This document shows positions 2,142 to 23,701 of a stretch of 64,000 bases of DNA, piece by piece; the first letter of the stretch is position 1; each line of letters starts with the position of its first letter. Below the pieces are notes generated by a model that saw nothing but the letters and a program-made list of their open reading frames with translations, had not been told where the DNA came from and made no database searches. Both the position numbers and the translations under genes were made by a program. Source of the DNA: Mucilaginibacter dorajii (GTDB lineage Bacteria > Bacteroidota > Bacteroidia > Sphingobacteriales > Sphingobacteriaceae); assembly GCF_024808255.1 (NCBI RefSeq), contig NZ_JANTYS010000002.1, positions 62,001 through 126,000 on the forward strand, in the 5' to 3' direction.

Positions 2142-2279
2142 ATGACGTCCAAAATAGTCGAACACTTAATTATACTCCATAGTTATATAATCAACACTTT
2201 AGATAAATCAGTTGACGAGATAAATTCTGAGGCAAATAGTTCAGCGACAATTTATTTTCATAACGGTAAACTTCAATGA
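2142..2279 (+). CDS. 45-aa ORF at the head of the retron operon
   Basis: A short ORF (starts MTSKIVEHLI, ends NGKLQ) whose TGA overlaps the ATG of the next gene as ATGA, the usual mark of translational coupling. It is predicted mostly helical and acidic, with no membrane segment and no family I recognise. It may be a small component or a leader peptide of the retron operon. An AT-rich stretch of about 200 bp separates it from the divergent ATPase gene and should hold both promoters. Confidence 0.5.
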   Translation: MTSKIVEHLIILHSYIINTLDKSVDEINSEANSSATIYFHNGKLQ

Positions 2280-3121
2280 GCGACTTCACTGTTATAAATT
2301 GGCTGCGCCTTAGAGAATTGTTTAAATCTAAAGAATGGGATAAAAACGACAATGAAAGTGAGATTTTTAAACGTTATAGCTATCTTCTGAATAATTTAAC
2401 GGAAATCGAACAGGACTTGATACTAGATCTTTCGGAAAGATACCTTTGGGTAAATTATTCGAAATATTTGGGTTTGTTGGAAGAACTATTTAGGCTGCTA
2501 AGTGCAGTTGAAAATTTAGCTGATTGTAAAAGAGTTTATTTTTTTCCTGTAATTAAACCTGAAGACGAAGATGAAACCAAAAGTGGGAATGTTTTATTAT
2601 ACATGGTCAAAACAGTAAAATCTTTTCTGCCTTCACCATTAGATAAGATAGAATTTAAAATTATTGAACAATTCGATAAAATTACCGACTCCGCATTCCG
2701 ACTTGAGGAAAACGAATTGCTTGTTTTGATTGATGATTTTATCGGTTCGGGAACTACAATAAGCAGCACGTTTTCCGAAATTGATAAAAATGAATTTATT
2801 CCCGCTGCACAAATTAAAGTCATGGCTATCACGATCATGCGCGAAGCTGTAAACTTGTTGGACGAAAAGAATATTGCTCATTACCAAAAGTATATCGAGA
2901 CGAAGGGTATTTCAGATTATTATGGAGATGAAGTAGAGAAAAAAATGGCGATCATTAAAAAGATTGAAACCATGACAAAAGCCGGCGGCAAATTTAAGCT
3001 TGGCTATAAAAAGTCAGAAGCGCTGGTTACAATGGCCCGTACACCTAACAATACTTTTTCAATATTTTGGTCTAATCATATCAAAAATGATAAAGAATAT
3101 ACTGCACCGTTTCTTCGATAA
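2276..3121 (+). CDS. Phosphoribosyltransferase-like retron accessory/effector protein
   Basis: This 281-aa protein carries LIDDFIGSGTT at residues 151-161, which matches the PRPP-binding loop of type I phosphoribosyltransferases (two acidic residues, then the G-S-G-T-T turn). The N-terminal 80 residues are helical. PRTase-like genes next to a small winged-helix gene and a retron RT are known from one class of retrons (type III in the published classification, from memory), where they are candidate effectors. Here it lies between the 45-aa ORF and the winged-helix gene (3-nt gap). Base composition is AT-rich like the rest of the retron. The substrate is unknown; PRTase fold confidence is high, toxin role inferred. 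Confidence 0.78.
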   Translation: MSDFTVINWLRLRELFKSKEWDKNDNESEIFKRYSYLLNNLTEIEQDLILDLSERYLWVNYSKYLGLLEELFRLLSAVENLADCKRVYFFPVIKPEDEDETKSGNVLLYMVKTVKSFLPSPLDKIEFKIIEQFDKITDSAFRLEENELLVLIDDFIGSGTTISSTFSEIDKNEFIPAAQIKVMAITIMREAVNLLDEKNIAHYQKYIETKGISDYYGDEVEKKMAIIKKIETMTKAGGKFKLGYKKSEALVTMARTPNNTFSIFWSNHIKNDKEYTAPFLR

Positions 3122-3124
3122 TTT

Positions 3125-3436
3125 ATGACAGAAAAATATTTACATATTCTGCTTTCAAACGTAGAGACTAACGGAACTATAAATAGTCTAATTGATAGCG
3201 GCCTGGGATTTAAGGAAATCGCCGATCTCACTGAAGAAGCTTTAAAGGAGAACTTTATTATCTACTCGAACGGAGCAGTATCATTATCTGAAGCAGGGCG
3301 CCAAGCGCTTAATGGATTACGCAAAAAGATGAAAAGTACAGACAAAGACAAGTGGATTAGTAAAGAAGAAAAATCAAAAATTACGAAAATCACAACAGAT
3401 TTCATATTTTTACCTGATCAAGATGATATACCATAA
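3125..3436 (+). CDS. Small winged-helix-like retron protein
   Basis: A 103-aa protein starting 3 nt after the PRTase gene. Residues 1-70 read as a winged helix: helices around HILLSNVE, INSLIDSGL and EIADLTEEALK, then a beta-wing-like FIIYSNGAVSLSEAGRQAL with the T/S-E-A-G-R-x-A-L ending typical of MarR/PadR-type wings. A lysine-rich tail follows. In PRTase retrons a small HTH-like protein is the usual partner between the PRTase and the ncRNA. It could bind the msDNA or control the operon; that is inference. Confidence 0.65.
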   Translation: MTEKYLHILLSNVETNGTINSLIDSGLGFKEIADLTEEALKENFIIYSNGAVSLSEAGRQALNGLRKKMKSTDKDKWISKEEKSKITKITTDFIFLPDQDDIP

Positions 3437-3610
3437 TTTGGAAAGGACATTACTGGTGAATCCAGTGCGGGGCGGTGAGTCACTGCCCTGTAATGCGAAC
3501 CCTTTTTCAAGCTTATCTGTTAAAGTTCGCTCCGCTGAGCTACGCAAACTTTAACAGATTTCAATATTACCTGGAAGCACTGATGTGCTTCCAGGCAAAT
3601 ACTGCCACTT
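3437..3610 (+). ncRNA. Retron msr-msd non-coding RNA (candidate)
   Basis: This 174-nt gap directly upstream of the RT is dense in hairpins. CATTAC 3448-3453 pairs with GTAATG 3490-3495 and closes a junction holding hairpin 1 (ACTGG 3452-3456 with CCAGT 3462-3466, two bases shared with the closing stem) and hairpin 2 (GGGCGGT 3470-3476 with ACTGCCC 3482-3488). A long 13-bp stem ATCTGTTAAAGTT 3515-3527 / 3547-3559 has an inner GCTC/GAGC stem and looks like the msd. An 11-bp stem CCTGGAAGCAC 3570-3580 / 3585-3595 with a TGAT loop follows. The a1/a2 pairing and branching G were not identified. Confidence 0.72.
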
Positions 3611-4639
3611 ATGGATTTTCAACATTACCAAAAGAAATTTACTGAAAAAGCGCTTCAAGCAGGATATTCAGCTGATAAAATATCCAAATGCCTTGCTTAC
3701 GCTGAAAAATTATTTGACAGCGGAGTTCCAGTCATCTATAATATGGAACATCTATCTGGTTTAGTAGGTTATAACACCACCTATATCTCAAGAGCAATAG
3801 ATCATACTGAATATTTCTACAAGACCTTTGATGTACCCAAGCGGAATGGAGATAAAAGGAAAATTTCAGAACCCTTGCCTAGTCTTAAAGAAATCCAATA
3901 TTGGATTTTGCATGAAATTTTATACAAAGTAGAACCGAGTGTTTATGCCAAGGCCTATGTTCCACTTTCATCTTTAAAACAAAATCTAATATTTCACAGG
4001 AATCAACCCACAGTATTAACGCTTGATATCAAGGATTTTTTCACATCGATTAACCGTGTAAAAATAGGTAATGTATTTAAAACCCTAGGTTACTCTCTGG
4101 TTATGGCCAATCTGTTATCTAAACTTTGTTCTCTAGAAGACTCGTTACCGCAGGGTGCTCCAACCAGCCCTTATTTGTCGAATTTAATATTGAAGGACTT
4201 TGATGACGAAATCGCATTGTTTTGCTTACCTCAAAAAATCAGATACACAAGATATGCCGATGACTTAGCTTTTTCTGGCACGTTCAACAAAAACGAAATT
4301 ATTACCAAAGTTGAACAGCTACTCAAGAAAACGGGATTAGTATTAAATCAAGAGAAAACCAAATTAATGGCTAAAGGTGACCGACAGATAGTTACAGGAA
4401 TTGTTGTTAATGAAAAATTGCAGGCACGAAAAGAATTGCGTCTGGAGATAAGACAACAAATGTATTTTATTAAAAAATTCGGTATGGCTTCACATATTGA
4501 AAAAATTAAAAATGAAAAAGCCAATTATTTCCACCATCTATTGGGTCAAATAAACTTCATAATATATCTGAATCAAGATGACAAAGAATTTATTGAATAC
4601 CGGCAATATCTGAACGATTTAAACAGGCAAAAAGCGTAA
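3611..4639 (+). CDS. Retron reverse transcriptase
   Basis: A 342-aa stand-alone RT that would copy the adjacent ncRNA into msDNA. RT motifs in order: first catalytic Asp in TLDIKDFF (D139), QGAPTSPYLSN (about 181-191), YADD at 215-218, and the retron-typical VTG at 261-263 followed by a basic helix. Length is normal for retron RTs. There is no maturase, endonuclease or C-terminal fusion. It starts straight after the structured RNA and shares strand and AT-rich composition with the PRTase and winged-helix genes. It is distinct from the group II intron RT at 21.9-23.1 kb, which belongs to another RT class. Confidence 0.9.
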   Translation: MDFQHYQKKFTEKALQAGYSADKISKCLAYAEKLFDSGVPVIYNMEHLSGLVGYNTTYISRAIDHTEYFYKTFDVPKRNGDKRKISEPLPSLKEIQYWILHEILYKVEPSVYAKAYVPLSSLKQNLIFHRNQPTVLTLDIKDFFTSINRVKIGNVFKTLGYSLVMANLLSKLCSLEDSLPQGAPTSPYLSNLILKDFDDEIALFCLPQKIRYTRYADDLAFSGTFNKNEIITKVEQLLKKTGLVLNQEKTKLMAKGDRQIVTGIVVNEKLQARKELRLEIRQQMYFIKKFGMASHIEKIKNEKANYFHHLLGQINFIIYLNQDDKEFIEYRQYLNDLNRQKA

Positions 4640-4716
4640 TAGGACGGCTATTATGAGTTTTTTTGATAAACAGACAGTTTCTAATAGCAATTAAATTCCC
4701 GTTGATTTACTTCTTT

Positions 4717-5475
4717 ATGGACTGTATTATTTGTAATAAGCCTGTTATAAAAAATTCTCTGGAACATATTGTACCAGAAGGATTGGGGAATAAATCTTAT
4801 ACTTTAGATCTTGGCGCTATATGTGGTGTTTGCAACAATTCCTTTTCCAATTTTGAAGCGAAAGCCTTATCAAATGGCATATTGGCAATGTCTAGGCCGA
4901 TGGCTGGTATTCAGACAAAAAAAGGAAAACCGGCAAAAGGAACATCACATGGTTTAAGTTTTGAAGGGAACAAGAATTACACTGCGAATCAGGTAACAGT
5001 TTTTGGCTTAACCGAAGACAATGTCCTTGAAATAAAAGAAGATGGTTCGTACGTCGTTAACGTTCCGGATTTTGAGAAGAATGAAGTACCTGTGTCCAAG
5101 CTTTTACTTAAAATAAGCATAGAGGCCTTGTATCAATCACAACGGGCGTTATACCGAAAAACCGATTTGCAAGAAGTCCGCACCTATCTGGACAAGAAAA
5201 GTAATGTGGACTGGCCATTTGTCACGACCAAATTAAGACCCTCAGATTTCAAGTCGGTACCCCGTTTTCAGGACAAACTTTATCTAAAGAAAATCAACTG
5301 TGAAATCCTTTATAAGATCATCAATCCCCAGATTTTTTTAATCAATTTCAGATACAAGTTCTTGTCTTATTTGATCAATATCGCCAGCCGCGATATGAGT
5401 TGGATCGGACCTTATCAGGAATTGGATAACACCTTGGGGATACAACTACTTAAAAAAAAACACACGGGTGCCTAA
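4717..5475 (+). CDS. HNH endonuclease-like protein next to the retron
   Basis: The 252-aa reading begins at MDCIICNKP; an in-frame extension to 4663 adds a hydrophobic stretch and is less likely. Seen motifs: CIIC, then LEHIVPEGLGN, then CGVCN. This is the CxxC..EH..CxxCN zinc/HNH pattern, with His as the candidate catalytic residue. The remainder is a mixed alpha/beta region I do not recognise. It lies 77 nt after the RT on the same strand and may be an additional retron effector or a separate defence gene. A second protein with the same signature is at 59,897-60,919 on the chromosome. Confidence 0.65.
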   Translation: MDCIICNKPVIKNSLEHIVPEGLGNKSYTLDLGAICGVCNNSFSNFEAKALSNGILAMSRPMAGIQTKKGKPAKGTSHGLSFEGNKNYTANQVTVFGLTEDNVLEIKEDGSYVVNVPDFEKNEVPVSKLLLKISIEALYQSQRALYRKTDLQEVRTYLDKKSNVDWPFVTTKLRPSDFKSVPRFQDKLYLKKINCEILYKIINPQIFLINFRYKFLSYLINIASRDMSWIGPYQELDNTLGIQLLKKKHTGA

Positions 5476-5537: not shown

Positions 5538-6662
5538 TTATTCAAATACCTTATCGATTTCGTTCGTTAAATCATAGATGATCTTTTCCTGTTCGTGTAT
5601 AGATAACGCGTTCATGGGCCGCTCCGGTTTATTGATGGCTTGATAATCCTTAAGGGTACTCTTTGTAAAGCGACATAAACCGACGATTACCGGGAGTATA
5701 CGCGCGCCGCTTTCTTCCGCTTTTTTTAATAAAGGTGGAACTTCCTGCTCGCGTATAAACTTCGAGGCAAGGAAACTATTAGACACTAATAAAATTGCAA
5801 CATCTGCTTTAGCAATGGCTGACTCAATTTCCTTTTTCCAGAGGTCACCAGCATTTAAACGGGTATCATCCCATATCTCTAGTTCTAACCCCTCGTACGC
5901 CATTGTCTGTAATGCGGTATTGATTTTATTTAACCATTCTATATCCGCGTGGCAGTAACTTATAAACAAATGTTTTTTTCCTGAAATAATCCGGCTCGGA
6001 GTCGTGCTTTCCATCTTTTTTTTGGGTTTATCTTTCAGAGCTAACAAATTAAACTGCGCCAGGCAATTTCCTTTTTTGGCTTGCAATAATTTATAGTTTG
6101 GATCCAAATCATGATTGCTTAAGGGACTGAAACAATAGATCGACTTGAGGTCAGGCATCTTGGAGTGAAGTTCAGTTACCGGTAAATCACTCAGCGGATT
6201 ATTGTTAAGCCAAAGCAGCTTCATTTTGGAAAATTTTAATAATTGTACCGGAAATGTGGAAAAGGCGTTATTGGCAAGACTTAGCTCTTCCAGATCGGCC
6301 AACCGAGTGATGTCATTGGGTAGTTCCACCAACTGGTTGCCGGAAAGATTCAACACTTTGAGCTTGTCCAGTGCGCCGATCTGGTGCGGCATCTTTTTTA
6401 ACTTATTGTTTCGTAAGATTAAAACCTCCAGTTGCGGCAAATCGAAATTTCCGGCATAAAGCGTACTGATTTGGTTATTGCCTAAATCTAAGTTTTGTAA
6501 TCGCTTGAGCTGGCTTAGTTCCGGCGGGAGTATCTTGATCTGGTTATGGCTAAGGTTGAGCTTGCGCAAGTTTTTACAGCGTAAAATGGCTTCCGGAACT
6601 TCGGTAAGCCCTTGGTTAGAAAGATCAAGTTTGGAAGCAAAAGGCGATATATCAGTCATCAT
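5538..6662 (-). CDS. LRR-TIR protein (leucine-rich repeats plus C-terminal TIR domain)
   Basis: The 374-aa protein has about seven leucine-rich repeats at residues 10-170 (pattern LxxLxLxxNxLxxLP) and a TIR domain from about 230. TIR motifs: HLFISYCHAD at the start, LEIWDDTRLNAGDLW in the BB-loop region, and SNSFLASKFIREQE with the candidate catalytic glutamate near 305-307. TIR domains of this kind usually cleave NAD+ or make cyclic ADP-ribose signals; an LRR sensor on an effector fits abortive-infection immunity. It faces away from two homologous RNA elements and starts 34 bp from the first promoter-like box. The domains are clear; role and link to the RNAs are inferred. Confidence 0.85.
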   Translation of the reverse strand: MMTDISPFASKLDLSNQGLTEVPEAILRCKNLRKLNLSHNQIKILPPELSQLKRLQNLDLGNNQISTLYAGNFDLPQLEVLILRNNKLKKMPHQIGALDKLKVLNLSGNQLVELPNDITRLADLEELSLANNAFSTFPVQLLKFSKMKLLWLNNNPLSDLPVTELHSKMPDLKSIYCFSPLSNHDLDPNYKLLQAKKGNCLAQFNLLALKDKPKKKMESTTPSRIISGKKHLFISYCHADIEWLNKINTALQTMAYEGLELEIWDDTRLNAGDLWKKEIESAIAKADVAILLVSNSFLASKFIREQEVPPLLKKAEESGARILPVIVGLCRFTKSTLKDYQAINKPERPMNALSIHEQEKIIYDLTNEIDKVFE

Positions 6663-6695: not shown

Positions 6696-6703
6696 TAACT
6701 TTG
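6696..6703 (+). promoter_or_regulatory. Promoter -7 box of RNA element A
   Basis: TAACTTTG matches the Bacteroidota -7 consensus TAnnTTTG exactly. The first stem of element A starts 5 nt later, so transcription would begin at about 6,708. No clear -33 TTG was seen. Confidence 0.55.
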
Positions 6704-6979
6704 TGTTCCTTGCGGAGGACAGGGCGGAACGACCGGCGGACCCGTGTCTAACACACTTCGCTGGCCCGGACAAAATCAGCGAGGATGACTGGGCCCTTTG
6801 AACCCTGGTATTATAAAACGGGGCGAGATGCCCCGCGGAGGCGAAAGTTATTGCCTCACTGCCCGAAACAACTTGGAAAAGGGCTAGACCGGTTCCTGGC
6901 AGACTCAGCTCAGCTACGGCAACCTCACAAAAAATGTACGCCCGCTAACCCGAGTGATCTCAGTTAGCGGGTTTTTTTA
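6704..6979 (+). ncRNA. Structured RNA element A (unassigned, paralogue of element B)
   Basis: A non-coding stretch bounded by a promoter box and an intrinsic terminator. The 5' hairpin is stem CCTTG 6708-6712, loop CGGAGGA 6713-6719, stem CAGGG 6720-6724. Further motifs shared with element B are GACCGGCGG at 6731-6739, CGGTTCC at 6890-6896 and CTACGGCAACCTCACAA at 6914-6930, the last just before the terminator. The 5' stem differs in sequence between the two copies while the loop is identical, which argues for a selected RNA fold. It does not look like RNase P, tmRNA, SRP or 6S RNA to me. Confidence 0.6.
6941..6978 (+). terminator. Intrinsic terminator of RNA element A
   Basis: A perfect 9-bp stem CCCGCTAAC (6941-6949) / GTTAGCGGG (6963-6971) followed by seven T residues. 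Confidence 0.85.
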
Positions 6980-6992
6980 TCCGAAAATTTAG

Positions 6993-7000
6993 TAATTTAG
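6993..7000 (+). promoter_or_regulatory. Promoter -7-like box of RNA element B
   Basis: TAATTTAG, one mismatch to TAnnTTTG, lies 4 nt before the first stem of element B, nearly the same spacing as in element A. Confidence 0.42.
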
Positions 7001-7218
7001 GCTGCCCGCGGAGGACGGGCTTTAAGACTTGCGCTATTTGCGCTCTGGCTTATCAAACACAAAGGGGACCGGCGGGCCGAACAATTCCGATGCGTGACAA
7101 GGGACGTTGCCTTCGGGTTAAAATTGGGCGGTTCCAAAAGCCAACTTTGCTTCGCTACGGCACCCTCACAATAAAGATCTTCCTCCAAGCCGGTGATGAG
7201 CCACTTGGAGGTTTTTTG
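7001..7218 (+). ncRNA. Structured RNA element B (unassigned, paralogue of element A)
   Basis: The 5' hairpin is GCCCG 7004-7008, loop CGGAGGA 7009-7015, CGGGC 7016-7020: the same loop as element A on a different but complementary stem. Shared internal motifs are GACCGGCGGG 7067-7076, CGGTTCC 7129-7135 and CTACGGCACCCTCACAA 7155-7171, then a terminator. The spacing CGGTTCC to CTACGG is 26 nt here and 24 nt in A; the spacing to GACCGG is about 40 nt longer than in A. Its terminator sits just before a membrane-protein gene, so readthrough control is possible. Confidence 0.6.
7182..7217 (+). terminator. Intrinsic terminator of RNA element B, upstream of a CDS
   Basis: Stem CCTCCAAG (7182-7189) / CTTGGAGG (7204-7211) followed by six T residues. 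An in-frame ATG occurs only 5 nt after the T-run, so this could also act as an attenuator for the following gene. Confidence 0.82.
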
Positions 7219-7264
7219 ATTAATGTCAGATCGTGTCGTATATTGCTTAACACTTAGTAAGATT

Positions 7265-7693
7265 ATGACTGATGAAGAATGCAGGAAACTCGGCATCATG
7301 ACCGAACAGGAATTAAAAGATATGGACTTGCGCTGGGAGCGCATCGAAGAAAGCGGCATCGCAGATACCCAGAAATATTTTGACCGGATGCATGACAAGG
7401 TATTCAGTTTGAATAATCTACTGATCGCTGCCTATTTTGCTTTAATCGCCATAAGAAAAGATGTGCCTAACTGGAGCCTGGTTATCCCAAGTTTAAATTC
7501 TGTTTTGTTATTGTACGTCGACTACCGCATGCTGGTTCGTGCAAGAATCCAAGGTAACATTACCAAAGTTGACGCAGAAACCCGCGAAAAATATGGAAGT
7601 TTGCAGACTGGAACCAATTTATATTCGCTTCTTTCTATTTTTTCTACACTTGCCGTATTGTTAATCTTCGGTTATTTTTTGTTATCCACTTAA
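7265..7693 (+). CDS. Small multi-pass membrane protein, possible effector
   Basis: A 142-aa protein starting MTDEECRKLG. The alternative ATG at 7223 adds 14 residues but begins 5 nt after the terminator T-run. About three hydrophobic segments are visible: FSLNNLLIAAYFALIAI, WSLVIPSLNSVLLLY, and a C-terminal LLSIFSTLAVLLIFGYFLL, with an acidic helical N-terminus. The layout recalls SLATT or 2TM membrane effectors of defence systems, but I see no diagnostic motif. It is downstream of RNA element B and followed by a bidirectional terminator. A pore-forming role is inference only. Confidence 0.6.
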   Translation: MTDEECRKLGIMTEQELKDMDLRWERIEESGIADTQKYFDRMHDKVFSLNNLLIAAYFALIAIRKDVPNWSLVIPSLNSVLLLYVDYRMLVRARIQGNITKVDAETREKYGSLQTGTNLYSLLSIFSTLAVLLIFGYFLLST

Positions 7694-7824: not shown

Positions 7825-8007
7825 TTATTTACTGTCTTTATTTTTCAGTTCTGTTACCTCGGTACGGCCCGCCTGTGCCAATACCTTAATTTCCTGGTAA
7901 GCTTTACGCAGGCGTGTTCCTGCCGCTTTGTTACCTTTTTCATGGAATGCAACGGCATCCGCTTCTGTTGCTGCTACTAAGTCTTTTAACTTTTGAAATG
8001 TTGACAT
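7825..8007 (-). CDS. Histone H1-like (Hc1-type) small basic protein
   Basis: A 60-aa helical protein with a hydrophilic, lysine-rich C-terminus. The pattern FQKLKDLVAATEADA..FHEKGNKAAGTRLRKAYQEIK matches the short histone H1-like proteins common in Bacteroidota. Such proteins bind DNA non-specifically. It is the last gene of the leftward run and may coat or organise ICE DNA; that is inference. Confidence 0.75.
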   Translation of the reverse strand: MSTFQKLKDLVAATEADAVAFHEKGNKAAGTRLRKAYQEIKVLAQAGRTEVTELKNKDSK

Positions 8008-8066
8008 AATTTAAATTATTTAAAATTGAAGATATAAAAAATTGATTAATTACTATTTTAATTAGC

Positions 8067-9062
8067 CTACATGCTCATTTCCTGGCCTTCTGCCACCTGT
8101 TTCTGTTGGCCTTTATCTTTGGCCAGTGAAGTGCCCAGGCTGTTTTCCTTTTGCAGGTCTTCCCGTTTTTCAGGCTTGCCGTTCAAATTGTAAAAGTTGA
8201 TGTTGCCGTAACGCGGCACGGCCTCGATGCGCATCTGCACTTCTTTACCATCAGTTCCGGTAACACTGACCACAGGACGGTTGCCATCTTTGAGATCATT
8301 ATAAATGGCTTCCTGTTTTTTTGGGTCGTCCGGCATATTGATCTTGTATTCCGCTAACACCTGTTTCAGGTCAAAGCCGTAGTTTTCATTATACTGTTGG
8401 ATCTTGTAATTGCCATAATTGTCTTTGGGTTTATCAAAGGCGATCACATTCCATGCCTGGTACCCAGCGCCGGAGCGGCTCACCAGGTCGTCACGGAAAG
8501 CGGAACGGCCTTGCAGCATGTTGGAAGCCTGCGTAACATTGAACCCTTTGCCTTTGTCCACATAAAAAGAATTGGTTAGGGTTTGCCCGTAATAGGTCTG
8601 CTGAAACTCTTTGGCTACATAGTCCACTTTACCATCCTTCATGGTGGCCAGTGCAGTTTTAAATTGCAGGTCTTTTTCGGTTGGTTTACCTAATGCGAGT
8701 TCGCTTGCACCTTTCTGCGACTTGAAGAAATCGATGGCATCAACCGGACTCTGAAACGAACGCATAATGTTTTTGCCTTGCTCACCGGGAGAAATGACCA
8801 TGTATTTCTGCTCGTTTTCCAGCGGCTTAGCTTTGGCACTGTAGGCCAGTTCAAACTTGTTAAAGAAATAGTAATCGGACTGCCCGGATTGCTTAAAGTG
8901 CAACGTAGCATCCATCTGGCCTTTATCTGATGGCAACGTTGCTTTGAGCTGGAAAGCAGGCAGGTCTTTTTCCATGTTCTTTTCCATTTCGACAATGAGT
9001 TGCTTGTCGAATTTAAGGCCTTTCATTTCGGCTTTTAAATTTTCAAGATTGTTCTTGTTCAT
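8067..9062 (-). CDS. Hypothetical cytoplasmic protein in the position usually held by traN
   Basis: A 331-aa protein without signal peptide or membrane segment. It is rich in Lys, Asp, Gln and Asn, with tandem-like beta regions (ATLPSDKGQMDATLHFKQ; RPVVSVTGTDGKEVQMRIEA) and a final INFYNLNGKPEKREDL that recalls DUF3945-type proteins encoded near Bacteroidota mobile elements. It follows traM by 21 nt. The function is not known; it does not look like TraN, which is exported. Confidence 0.55.
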   Translation of the reverse strand: MNKNNLENLKAEMKGLKFDKQLIVEMEKNMEKDLPAFQLKATLPSDKGQMDATLHFKQSGQSDYYFFNKFELAYSAKAKPLENEQKYMVISPGEQGKNIMRSFQSPVDAIDFFKSQKGASELALGKPTEKDLQFKTALATMKDGKVDYVAKEFQQTYYGQTLTNSFYVDKGKGFNVTQASNMLQGRSAFRDDLVSRSGAGYQAWNVIAFDKPKDNYGNYKIQQYNENYGFDLKQVLAEYKINMPDDPKKQEAIYNDLKDGNRPVVSVTGTDGKEVQMRIEAVPRYGNINFYNLNGKPEKREDLQKENSLGTSLAKDKGQQKQVAEGQEMSM

Positions 9063-9083
9063 AATGATGATTTAAGTAAAACA

Positions 9084-10139
9084 TTAATGATTAGTTTTAA
9101 CTGTATTGTCGCGTAATAATAGCGGGTAACCTGATTTCAGCGGCTGTTTGATGCGCTTTAGCTTTTTGGTCAGCAAGCCCTTGGCCGCATCCAACCCCGC
9201 ACCGGCAAGCTGCGTGGTCAAACTCTGGTCAAAGCCCAGCCCGATACTGCTAATGGCATCTGCACCACCTGTACTGGCCGCATCGGACAACATCGCTTCG
9301 GGTGCGTTTATACCGATCATGGCATCCGTTTGATCAAACACGGTTAAGCTCACGGGGATAATGGAAGTCCCCAAACGTATATTGCGTATTTCCAGGTTAA
9401 GCCTTTGGTTACTGAATTTGGCCAGGCCAAAAATATTGTAGCCTTTCGGCACCAGTTGGCCGTTAATGGTGATGGTATCGAGTAGACGTAACTTCACTAC
9501 GGAACCTTCGGTAGCCTTTTGGTTGCCATCAATAACCGCAGGAATGGCTTTAAATACACTATCAGTTACTGCACCCGGCTTTAGTACCTGCTGCTTCACC
9601 TGGCCGGGATTTTGAACGGCCATGATCTTATCCATAAGGGTATTCAACTGCGCCATTTCAGGATCATCGCCCTTGCCGGATTCCTGCATGGTTTTCATCA
9701 GCTTTTCCAGTTTAGCTACATCTTTGGAAACAGGCGCATCATCCGTAATACCTCTGCTTACTTCTGGATAAGATTTCGGTGCGTTAACCGGTGTATTGAC
9801 CTGTTTATTGATAGCTGCCAGCTTTTCGTTGATGGCCTTGGTTTGGGGATCGTCTGCCTGGTCGAAACCCAAACGACCCGCAACCGCTGCGATGCTATTC
9901 GCATCAGCATGGGTAGAATCCTTTTTGGTCAGTTCATAGATGCCCATTTTATCAGCAGGTGCGTCTTTTTTAAACTGCGCGTCAGGTAGGGCCGTGTTGA
10001 TGCCTTTGTCAGCTGTGCCTTGCACAGCAACAACCTGCTGACCACCGCCCAGGGCATAAAAAGCGAGTGCCAAAAAAGGTAGGATGAGGAACGGTAGCAT
10101 AAGCAGCATTTTGCGCTTATCCATTTTTGTCTTAGTCAT
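9084..10139 (-). CDS. traM: Conjugative transposon protein TraM (VirB10-like)
   Basis: A 351-aa protein with a short cytoplasmic N-terminus (KTKMDKRK), one membrane segment (MLLMLPFLILPFLALAFYAL), a long disordered periplasmic linker of about 150 residues and a C-terminal beta domain (about 190-330). This is the VirB10 layout of the TraM family, which bridges inner and outer membrane in the type IV secretion channel. The beta domain holds VKLRLLDTITINGQLVPKG, like other TraM/VirB10 barrels. It sits at the usual place after traK and traL. Confidence 0.88.
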   Translation of the reverse strand: MTKTKMDKRKMLLMLPFLILPFLALAFYALGGGQQVVAVQGTADKGINTALPDAQFKKDAPADKMGIYELTKKDSTHADANSIAAVAGRLGFDQADDPQTKAINEKLAAINKQVNTPVNAPKSYPEVSRGITDDAPVSKDVAKLEKLMKTMQESGKGDDPEMAQLNTLMDKIMAVQNPGQVKQQVLKPGAVTDSVFKAIPAVIDGNQKATEGSVVKLRLLDTITINGQLVPKGYNIFGLAKFSNQRLNLEIRNIRLGTSIIPVSLTVFDQTDAMIGINAPEAMLSDAASTGGADAISSIGLGFDQSLTTQLAGAGLDAAKGLLTKKLKRIKQPLKSGYPLLLRDNTVKTNH

Positions 10140-23149: not shown

Positions 23150-23701
23150 TGTCGTCTTGCCTCACTTTGTTAAAGAATTTACTTTTAATATGGTCCCTTC
23201 GCTCCATTCCCATTACGGAACTTCATTGCTACTATGAACCACTCCGACTCCCTGTCATCTTCCGGCGCATTTCCCTGCGTTAGGTTATAGCGCCTTCCTT
23301 GCTCCGGCAATTTCTTACCGGGATAACGAGGGTCTCTCCAGTTACCCATCCATCAGTTTGTTCCATGCCATCGCTATCACCCCGCCAGTGCCTGATACCG
23401 TATCAGTCCATTTCGGTATCAGATGTTGTCTTCGCTCAGTCAGTAGAAGCTCGACCACTGGTGTACCTTATTTTCGAGGCTACTTTGCGTTCACTTTCAG
23501 TTATGGCCTGGTAACTCGCTTGCCCTGCTTACCAGAGCGTTTTCATCGGGCTTCAACGGCTTCATTTCTTCCGCCGTTGCCGATAATGCTTCGATGCTTT
23601 GACTATTGCATCGGTAGGATTTACACCTACTTGATGGATGCGCATTTGCTGGACGCACACTGACTTTATAAAGAACGAATGTCCGGCAAATGCTGACCCT
23701 G

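Follow-up and report, generated by a model that had tools for sequence, protein, structure and literature searches.

The LRR-TIR gene of the window (the whole stretch of DNA analysed, 64,000 nucleotides) is accompanied by two copies, A and B, of an RNA family that is new to Rfam 15 and probably represents a trans-acting, pseudoknotted non-coding RNA. Relatives of the gene found in other species have this RNA too, likewise placed back to back with them, which argues that the RNA and the LRR-TIR protein probably work together in defence. Our preferred reading, held with a probability of roughly 0.6, is a two-component defence cassette in which the dedicated trans-acting RNA would control an LRR-TIR/SEFIR effector, presumably by binding it and presumably as a restraint. 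Across the nine RNAs in eight paired loci that form the evidence base, sequence comparison establishes a conserved divergent pairing, a covarying RNA core and an RNA form that follows the LRR half of the protein.

The RNA elements and their covarying core

Elements A and B lie in tandem, flanked by the LRR-TIR gene (minus strand, 5538-6662) on one side and a membrane-protein gene (7223-7693) on the other. Each consists of a -7-type box, a hairpin at the 5' end, the motif GCTACGGCA(A/C)CCTCAC and a terminator hairpin plus U-tract. Their parts are:

5538-6662, minus strand: LRR-TIR gene, 374 aa, with an LRR half (about residues 1-229) and a TIR half (230-374), from Pfam LRR and TIR_2
6696-6703, plus strand: predicted -7-type promoter box of RNA A, TAACTTTG, from the sequence
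6706-6978, plus strand: RNA A, about 270 nt, ends approximate, from homology to B and to seven loci in other genomes
6708-6724, plus strand: P1 hairpin of RNA A, CCTTG-CGGAGGA-CAGGG, loop at 6713-6719, from covariation in eight sequences
6913-6920, plus strand: UNCG-type mini-hairpin of RNA A (GCTACGGCAACCTCAC begins at 6913)
6923-6926, plus strand: CCTC of RNA A, complementary to the P1 loop, from reading the sequence
6941-6978, plus strand: 3' hairpin of RNA A (6941-6971) with an asymmetric CC/A loop, an inner 3-bp stem and a U-tract (terminator), from covariation
6993-7000, plus strand: predicted -7-type promoter box of RNA B, TAATTTAG, from the sequence
7002-7217, plus strand: RNA B, about 215 nt, ends approximate, the second and diverged copy, from homology
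7004-7020, plus strand: P1 hairpin of RNA B, GCCCG-CGGAGGA-CGGGC, loop at 7009-7015, from covariation
7154-7161, plus strand: UNCG-type mini-hairpin of RNA B (GCTACGGCACCCTCAC begins at 7154)
7164-7167, plus strand: CCTC of RNA B, from reading the sequence
7182-7217, plus strand: 3' hairpin of RNA B (7182-7211) and U-tract, from covariation

The initial annotation had described two homologous structured RNAs of this place and architecture, and both elements were located there, with a local alignment score of 38, where 1000 mononucleotide shuffles reach at most 28 (33 against a shuffle maximum of 28 once the terminators are removed). It is mainly in the 3' ~95 nt that A and B resemble each other. 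Their folding energies by themselves do not stand out (z -1.78 for A and -0.11 for B), and structure is argued from the covariation seen among homologues. The covarying hairpin stems of the initial annotation are borne out by P1, where four of the five pairs are changed on both sides across eight aligned sequences; 97.5% of cells are paired, against at most 57.5% when the strands are slid, and the count of doubly changed pairs was equalled in 13 of 500 shuffles. In all nine RNAs, P1 has 4-5 bp and a 7-nt loop of the form NGG(A/U)GGR. By contrast with these elements, GACCGGCGG and CGGTTCC, also put forward as conserved, are present in A and B and absent from the three homologues checked (L100, L101 and L102), which places them outside the family core.

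The mini-hairpin (CTACGGCA of the initial annotation) is of UNCG type, and both of its pairs form in all nine RNAs, the outer one as G-C in six and as A-U in three; its forms are GC(UACG)GC, AC(UACG)GU and GC(UUCG)GC, with AC(UUAG)GU in G777. After it, CC(U/A)C complements the G(A/U)GG of the P1 loop in 9/9 sequences, and in G858 both sides are swapped together, from GAGG/CCUC to GUGG/CCAC. This suggests that the P1 loop and CC(U/A)C form a pseudoknot, with the one compensatory event being supportive and not conclusive. The 3' hairpin, which contains an asymmetric CC/A loop, was compared in nine sequences (G006 included, G858 left out): nine of its 12 pairs are changed on both sides, and 90.7% of cells are paired, against at most 53.7% when slid, with one of five measures, the number of further pair types, not above shuffles (reached in 187 of 500). 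The search strings for the core were composed after inspecting the sequences, and the structures were read from those same sequences, which somewhat favours them.

The stretch from P1 to the mini-hairpin is variable, ranging from 55 to 188 nt. The RNAs of G343 and G858 represent a short form, with spacers of 55 and 56 nt and a UUCG loop, and in both a 7-bp helix of differing sequence (AAATAAG/CTTATTT and AAATTTG/CAAATTT) abuts the mini-hairpin. This helix was rejected as a core part, having shuffle fractions of 0.05 and 0.027 in the short RNAs and at least 0.167 in the seven long ones. A conserved small peptide was likewise set aside on the position and length of the small ORFs, both of which vary. 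Pairing of CTACGG with 16S rRNA was dropped because the motif is altered to CTTAGG in G777 and to CTTCGG in G343 and G858.

Distribution and divergent pairing with LRR-TIR/SEFIR genes

Relatives of the LRR-TIR protein, defined as protein matches at E<=1e-30, were found in four of 121 genomes of the family, its own included, and the other three (L100, L101 and L102; 39-53% identity) all carry the RNA directly upstream on the opposite strand. In 395 genomes of the phylum there were 12 protein matches, three of which (G000, G016 and G343) extend over the LRR part, while nine match only from residue 188 onwards, on the TIR side. G343, from another family, encodes an LRR-SEFIR protein and a short RNA (42.6 bits, E 2.9e-10 with model R1, which was built from A, B and L100-L102). 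The nine TIR-only loci (L104-L112), which serve as a negative control, contain no RNA in the stretches covered, with a best score of 10.4 bits and no core; the start of the long ORF lies inside the stretch in four of the nine (L105, L106, L109 and L112), the ORF runs off in three, and the start was not placed in L107 and L111. Among 93 genomes of the genus of G117, three protein matches were found, all three with the RNA.

Searching from the RNA side extends this set. With R1, 107 of 399 family genomes matched at E<=0.1, and G000, G025, G117, G016, G152, G006 and G777 were accepted; the new RNAs are G152 (72.9 bits), G006 (49.6 bits) and G777 (36.1 bits), the rest scoring at most 34.6 bits. 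A divergent LRR-TIR gene is present in G152 and G777. Of 30 loci fetched from R1 matches, 23 were rejected, scoring at most 31.4 bits with R2 (a model built from nine sequences) and lacking the combined core. R2 gave seven matches in 138 genomes of the family of G343, where G343 and G858 were accepted (G858 with 45.8 bits and a divergent LRR-TIR gene) and the other five rejected (at most 28.9 bits, without the core). Both model matches in a third family (143 genomes) were also rejected.

In total, the RNA is present in all eight LRR-TIR/SEFIR loci found, and nine of ten RNAs lie in such loci. The window aside, four loci were found by protein, all with the RNA, and four by RNA, three of them with the protein. 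The initial annotation's link to the TIR gene is supported, the RNA adjoining an LRR-TIR/SEFIR gene in 8/8 loci, seven of them in other Bacteroidota genomes. A scan of 57 loci for P1, mini-hairpin and CCWC in combination picked out nine, each an LRR-TIR/SEFIR locus, and 0 of the 48 others. With R2 the ten RNAs score 45.8-81.4 bits, and the rejected loci examined at most 31.7 bits. The tenth RNA, G006 (L118), is a 3' half with no P1 and with CCTT instead of CCTC, and no LRR-TIR gene occurs in the fetched 3.1 kb. This may be a copy that has decayed or strayed, or else a version that serves a different partner. Near it lie an ATPase/HNH pair and a gene with an FRG domain.

Scans with exact motifs were fruitless, largely because the strings were too strict, and it was the protein search that then found relatives. 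These pattern searches hit one of 251 family genomes and four of 395 phylum genomes, and three extra pattern loci (L012-L014) were rejected, with no R2 match at E<=0.1 and no combined core. GCTACGGCANCCTCACA gave 79 matches at 78 loci in genome contigs, none of which was accepted; these loci were script-flagged for other motifs, and those with two flags, those from Bacteroidota and L029/L044 were read. The scan is uninformative on rarity because the pattern, with its leading G and trailing A, fits none of the seven other loci. In viral contigs, six loci with CTACGGCAMCCTCACAA read as coding sequence without other motifs, three contigs with the 3' hairpin loop were rejected, and no LRR-TIR gene was found. 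Plasmid searches returned 20, 2 and 0 records, none in the first two covering 80% of the query, and R2 matched nothing at E<=1 in L144, a Spirosoma TIR locus.

The geometry of the pair is constant. In 8/8 loci the RNA lies back to back with the LRR gene, and P1 begins 22-52 bp from the start codon (for G025 an internal ATG, chosen because it lines up with the starts of the other proteins; the longer version of that ORF would overlap the RNA), so the two predicted promoters must be back to back. A TAnnTTTG-like box precedes P1 by 3-5 nt in all nine RNAs, with the departures TTAATTTG in G025 and TATTTTTA in G016. Downstream of the RNA, the next gene points towards it in six loci and is unrelated, by reading, in two, so the RNA is not a leader; each RNA moreover ends in a terminator hairpin and U-tract, and with no conserved downstream gene a cis-acting leader or riboswitch was rejected. 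Two RNA copies occur only in the window, with one RNA at each other locus. All eight loci keep orientation and spacing despite differing surroundings.

The partner protein and the proposed working of the cassette

Relatives of the LRR-TIR protein occur in seven other Bacteroidota genomes at 29-52% identity. The effector half matches the PADLOC ThsB-type TIR model PDLC00420 in all seven TIR members, whereas that of G343 is a SEFIR domain (Pfam SEFIR 47.9 bits, cut-off 23; bSEFIR E 1.7e-30) that also exceeds the TIR_2 cut-off (42.9 against 28 bits). Between G343 (SEFIR) and G858 (TIR), the LRR halves are 54% identical, the highest of any pair, and the effector halves 14%. Because these two share the LRR half and the RNA form and differ in the effector, the type of RNA follows the LRR half. 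The simplest account would be an effector exchanged under a constant LRR-RNA pair, and such an exchange in turn makes the LRR half the likely point of contact with the RNA. A WxxEI motif, whose glutamate we take to be the catalytic residue of TIR NADases, is aligned in five of the seven TIR members and absent in G117 (L101) and G777 (L119), whose effector chemistry may differ from that of the other members.

In the AlphaFold2 model the LRR-TIR protein has a mean pLDDT of 84.9 and a pTM of 0.60, with a weak linker at 214-227, and its Pfam domain hits reveal no evident nucleotide-binding or membrane part. Among solved structures, its LRR half comes closest to Leptospira LRR proteins and SHOC2-like scaffolds, which by their titles are not RNA binders. 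Charge was rejected as a sign of RNA binding, since the net charge of the LRR half (+8 to +19) is not clearly unusual against the +6 of an unrelated control LRR from the same genome. With PADLOC 2.0.0, at the limits used, all eight proteins gave matches of the effector half only and none to a model spanning both LRR and TIR.

In the proposed working, the LRR half would bind the closed 5'-3' core of the RNA, and in the resting cell the RNA would keep the effector inactive. Phage infection may then damage, titrate or remodel the RNA, perhaps via its variable middle domain, and the freed effector, NAD-consuming if the TIR is typical, would cause the infected cell to stop growing or die. Restraint, and not activation, is proposed here as the role of the RNA by analogy with toxin control. 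A more detailed picture, which we put forward tentatively, is an RNA-gated immune receptor whose LRR half is occupied by its own pseudoknotted RNA, with the variable middle as the infection sensor and the TIR/SEFIR half exchangeable.

The same pairing and covariation would also suit an RNA that acts as activator or co-receptor. The LRR-TIR protein would then be inactive by itself, and the RNA, once a phage product had changed or bound it, would assemble the protein and turn the effector on. The second copy in the window, which has diverged and has a middle domain of its own, would fit a second specificity. We consider this activating role rather unlikely; the present evidence would fit either activation or restraint. 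Lower still in probability is a small RNA outside any effector complex, which would set the level of the LRR-TIR mRNA or protein or act on other mRNAs or ribosomes via an exposed GGAGG loop. The back-to-back promoters (22-52 bp) fit such co-regulation, and the P1 loop resembles a Shine-Dalgarno sequence; against this, the loop in G858 is GGUGG and has changed together with the 3' strand, which fits internal pairing, and the best duplex between RNA and mRNA is no stronger than in shuffles by conventional limits (fractions of 0.06 and 0.065, at least 0.22 in the other seven), so that simple antisense control of the LRR-TIR mRNA was rejected. A separate element, either a small RNA gene or a small mobile RNA unit merely travelling with the LRR-TIR gene, accords with the one orphan 3' half in G006 and is nevertheless highly improbable, given the same orientation and spacing in 8/8 loci at 29-52% protein identity and in differing surroundings.

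Known systems and genomic neighbourhood

The initial annotation assigned the RNAs to no recognised family, and the Rfam check agrees, without a match at the gathering cut-off: the sole Rfam 15 families recognised in the window are a group II intron and a tRNA, both away from these RNAs, the best chance match over A and B has 14.5 bits, and the eight homologue loci gave no match. An effector with a partner RNA is, as a broad idea, already known from retrons and type III toxin-antitoxin systems. Retrons, including the type III-A retron of the window, share an effector module and a partner ncRNA, but no reverse transcriptase is recognised at the other loci of this RNA family; long ORFs of the seven paired loci and the orphan contain four YxDD-type strings, none of them reverse-transcriptase-like by reading (one locus covers 3.4 kb). 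In type III toxin-antitoxin systems such as ToxIN, which act in phage abortive infection, a structured and pseudoknotted RNA beside a toxic effector holds that effector in check; the RNA consists of tandem repeats, is processed by the endoribonuclease toxin and shares one operon with it. The cassette resembles these in having a structured, probably pseudoknotted RNA encoded beside an effector, with restraint proposed by analogy, but its RNA is a single unit with its own predicted divergent promoter and its protein is of the LRR-TIR/SEFIR kind. On gene architecture, membership in the type III class was rejected, as the partner is a divergent LRR plus TIR/SEFIR protein and there is one RNA per locus except in the window.

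AbiF-type systems also combine a single effector with a dedicated ncRNA, but there the effector is of HEPN type, and it is by the effector, not by RNA comparison, that they are set apart. Thoeris ThsB and bSEFIR effectors share the effector half according to PADLOC (seven TIR members, the eighth being bSEFIR), whereas here that half is joined to an LRR half in one protein and has an RNA gene as its partner; we know of no RNA partner for ThsB or bSEFIR systems. Plant TIR-NLR and animal TLR receptors join an LRR sensor and a TIR signalling part in one protein, and the bacterial protein differs from them in having no evident nucleotide-binding or membrane part and in having a dedicated RNA gene. 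Bacteria, plants and animals all use LRR and TIR parts in immunity; with a conserved LRR-TIR/SEFIR-RNA pair, control by RNA would join the ways in which TIR effectors are known to be triggered. The cassette is a small two-gene unit that is directly testable, and the clear covariation signature of the new RNA family is usable for surveys. To our knowledge, no LRR-TIR/SEFIR protein with its own RNA gene has been described. The literature search found no report of such a pair, which is weak evidence as most subscription papers and preprints lay outside it. The part of PMC13142454 consulted describes no such LRR-TIR-RNA pair.

The type III-A retron next to the LRR-TIR and RNA genes of the window occupies 2276-4639, some 2 kb past the LRR-TIR gene (PRTase 2276-3121, winged-helix gene 3125-3436, reverse transcriptase 3611-4639, the last matching PADLOC RT_III-A with E 4e-149). 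Its ncRNA is probably located between the winged-helix and reverse transcriptase genes, where an inverted repeat can be read at about 3515-3559, and an HNH_5 endonuclease gene (4663-5475) follows directly after the reverse transcriptase. The small membrane protein (7223-7693) has no Pfam hit at E<=0.1. The initial annotation had also suggested a link of the RNAs to this protein; that link is not supported, since R2 matches nothing at E<=0.1 in the stretch fetched for the sole relative found (G647). That relative (46% identity; L017) is followed by a gene reading as DUF3800-type. Neither the membrane protein nor the retron is a conserved partner of the RNA.

The PADLOC neighbourhood scan covered ten proteins, nine of them neighbours. 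Candidate defence genes came up near two further paired loci: next to G777 a PDC-M62-like pair, and at G025 an FRG-type gene at a distance of about 7 kb from the LRR-TIR gene. The one neighbour scanned at each of G117 and G016 gave no match. Beyond the membrane-protein gene, the window region 7825-10139 holds an Hc1 histone-like gene (7825-8007) and a conjugative-transposon TraM gene (9084-10139), which suggests that an integrative conjugative element probably carries the window cluster as cargo. The group II intron (RF02005, 86.7 bits) is located further along the window, at 23370-23623.
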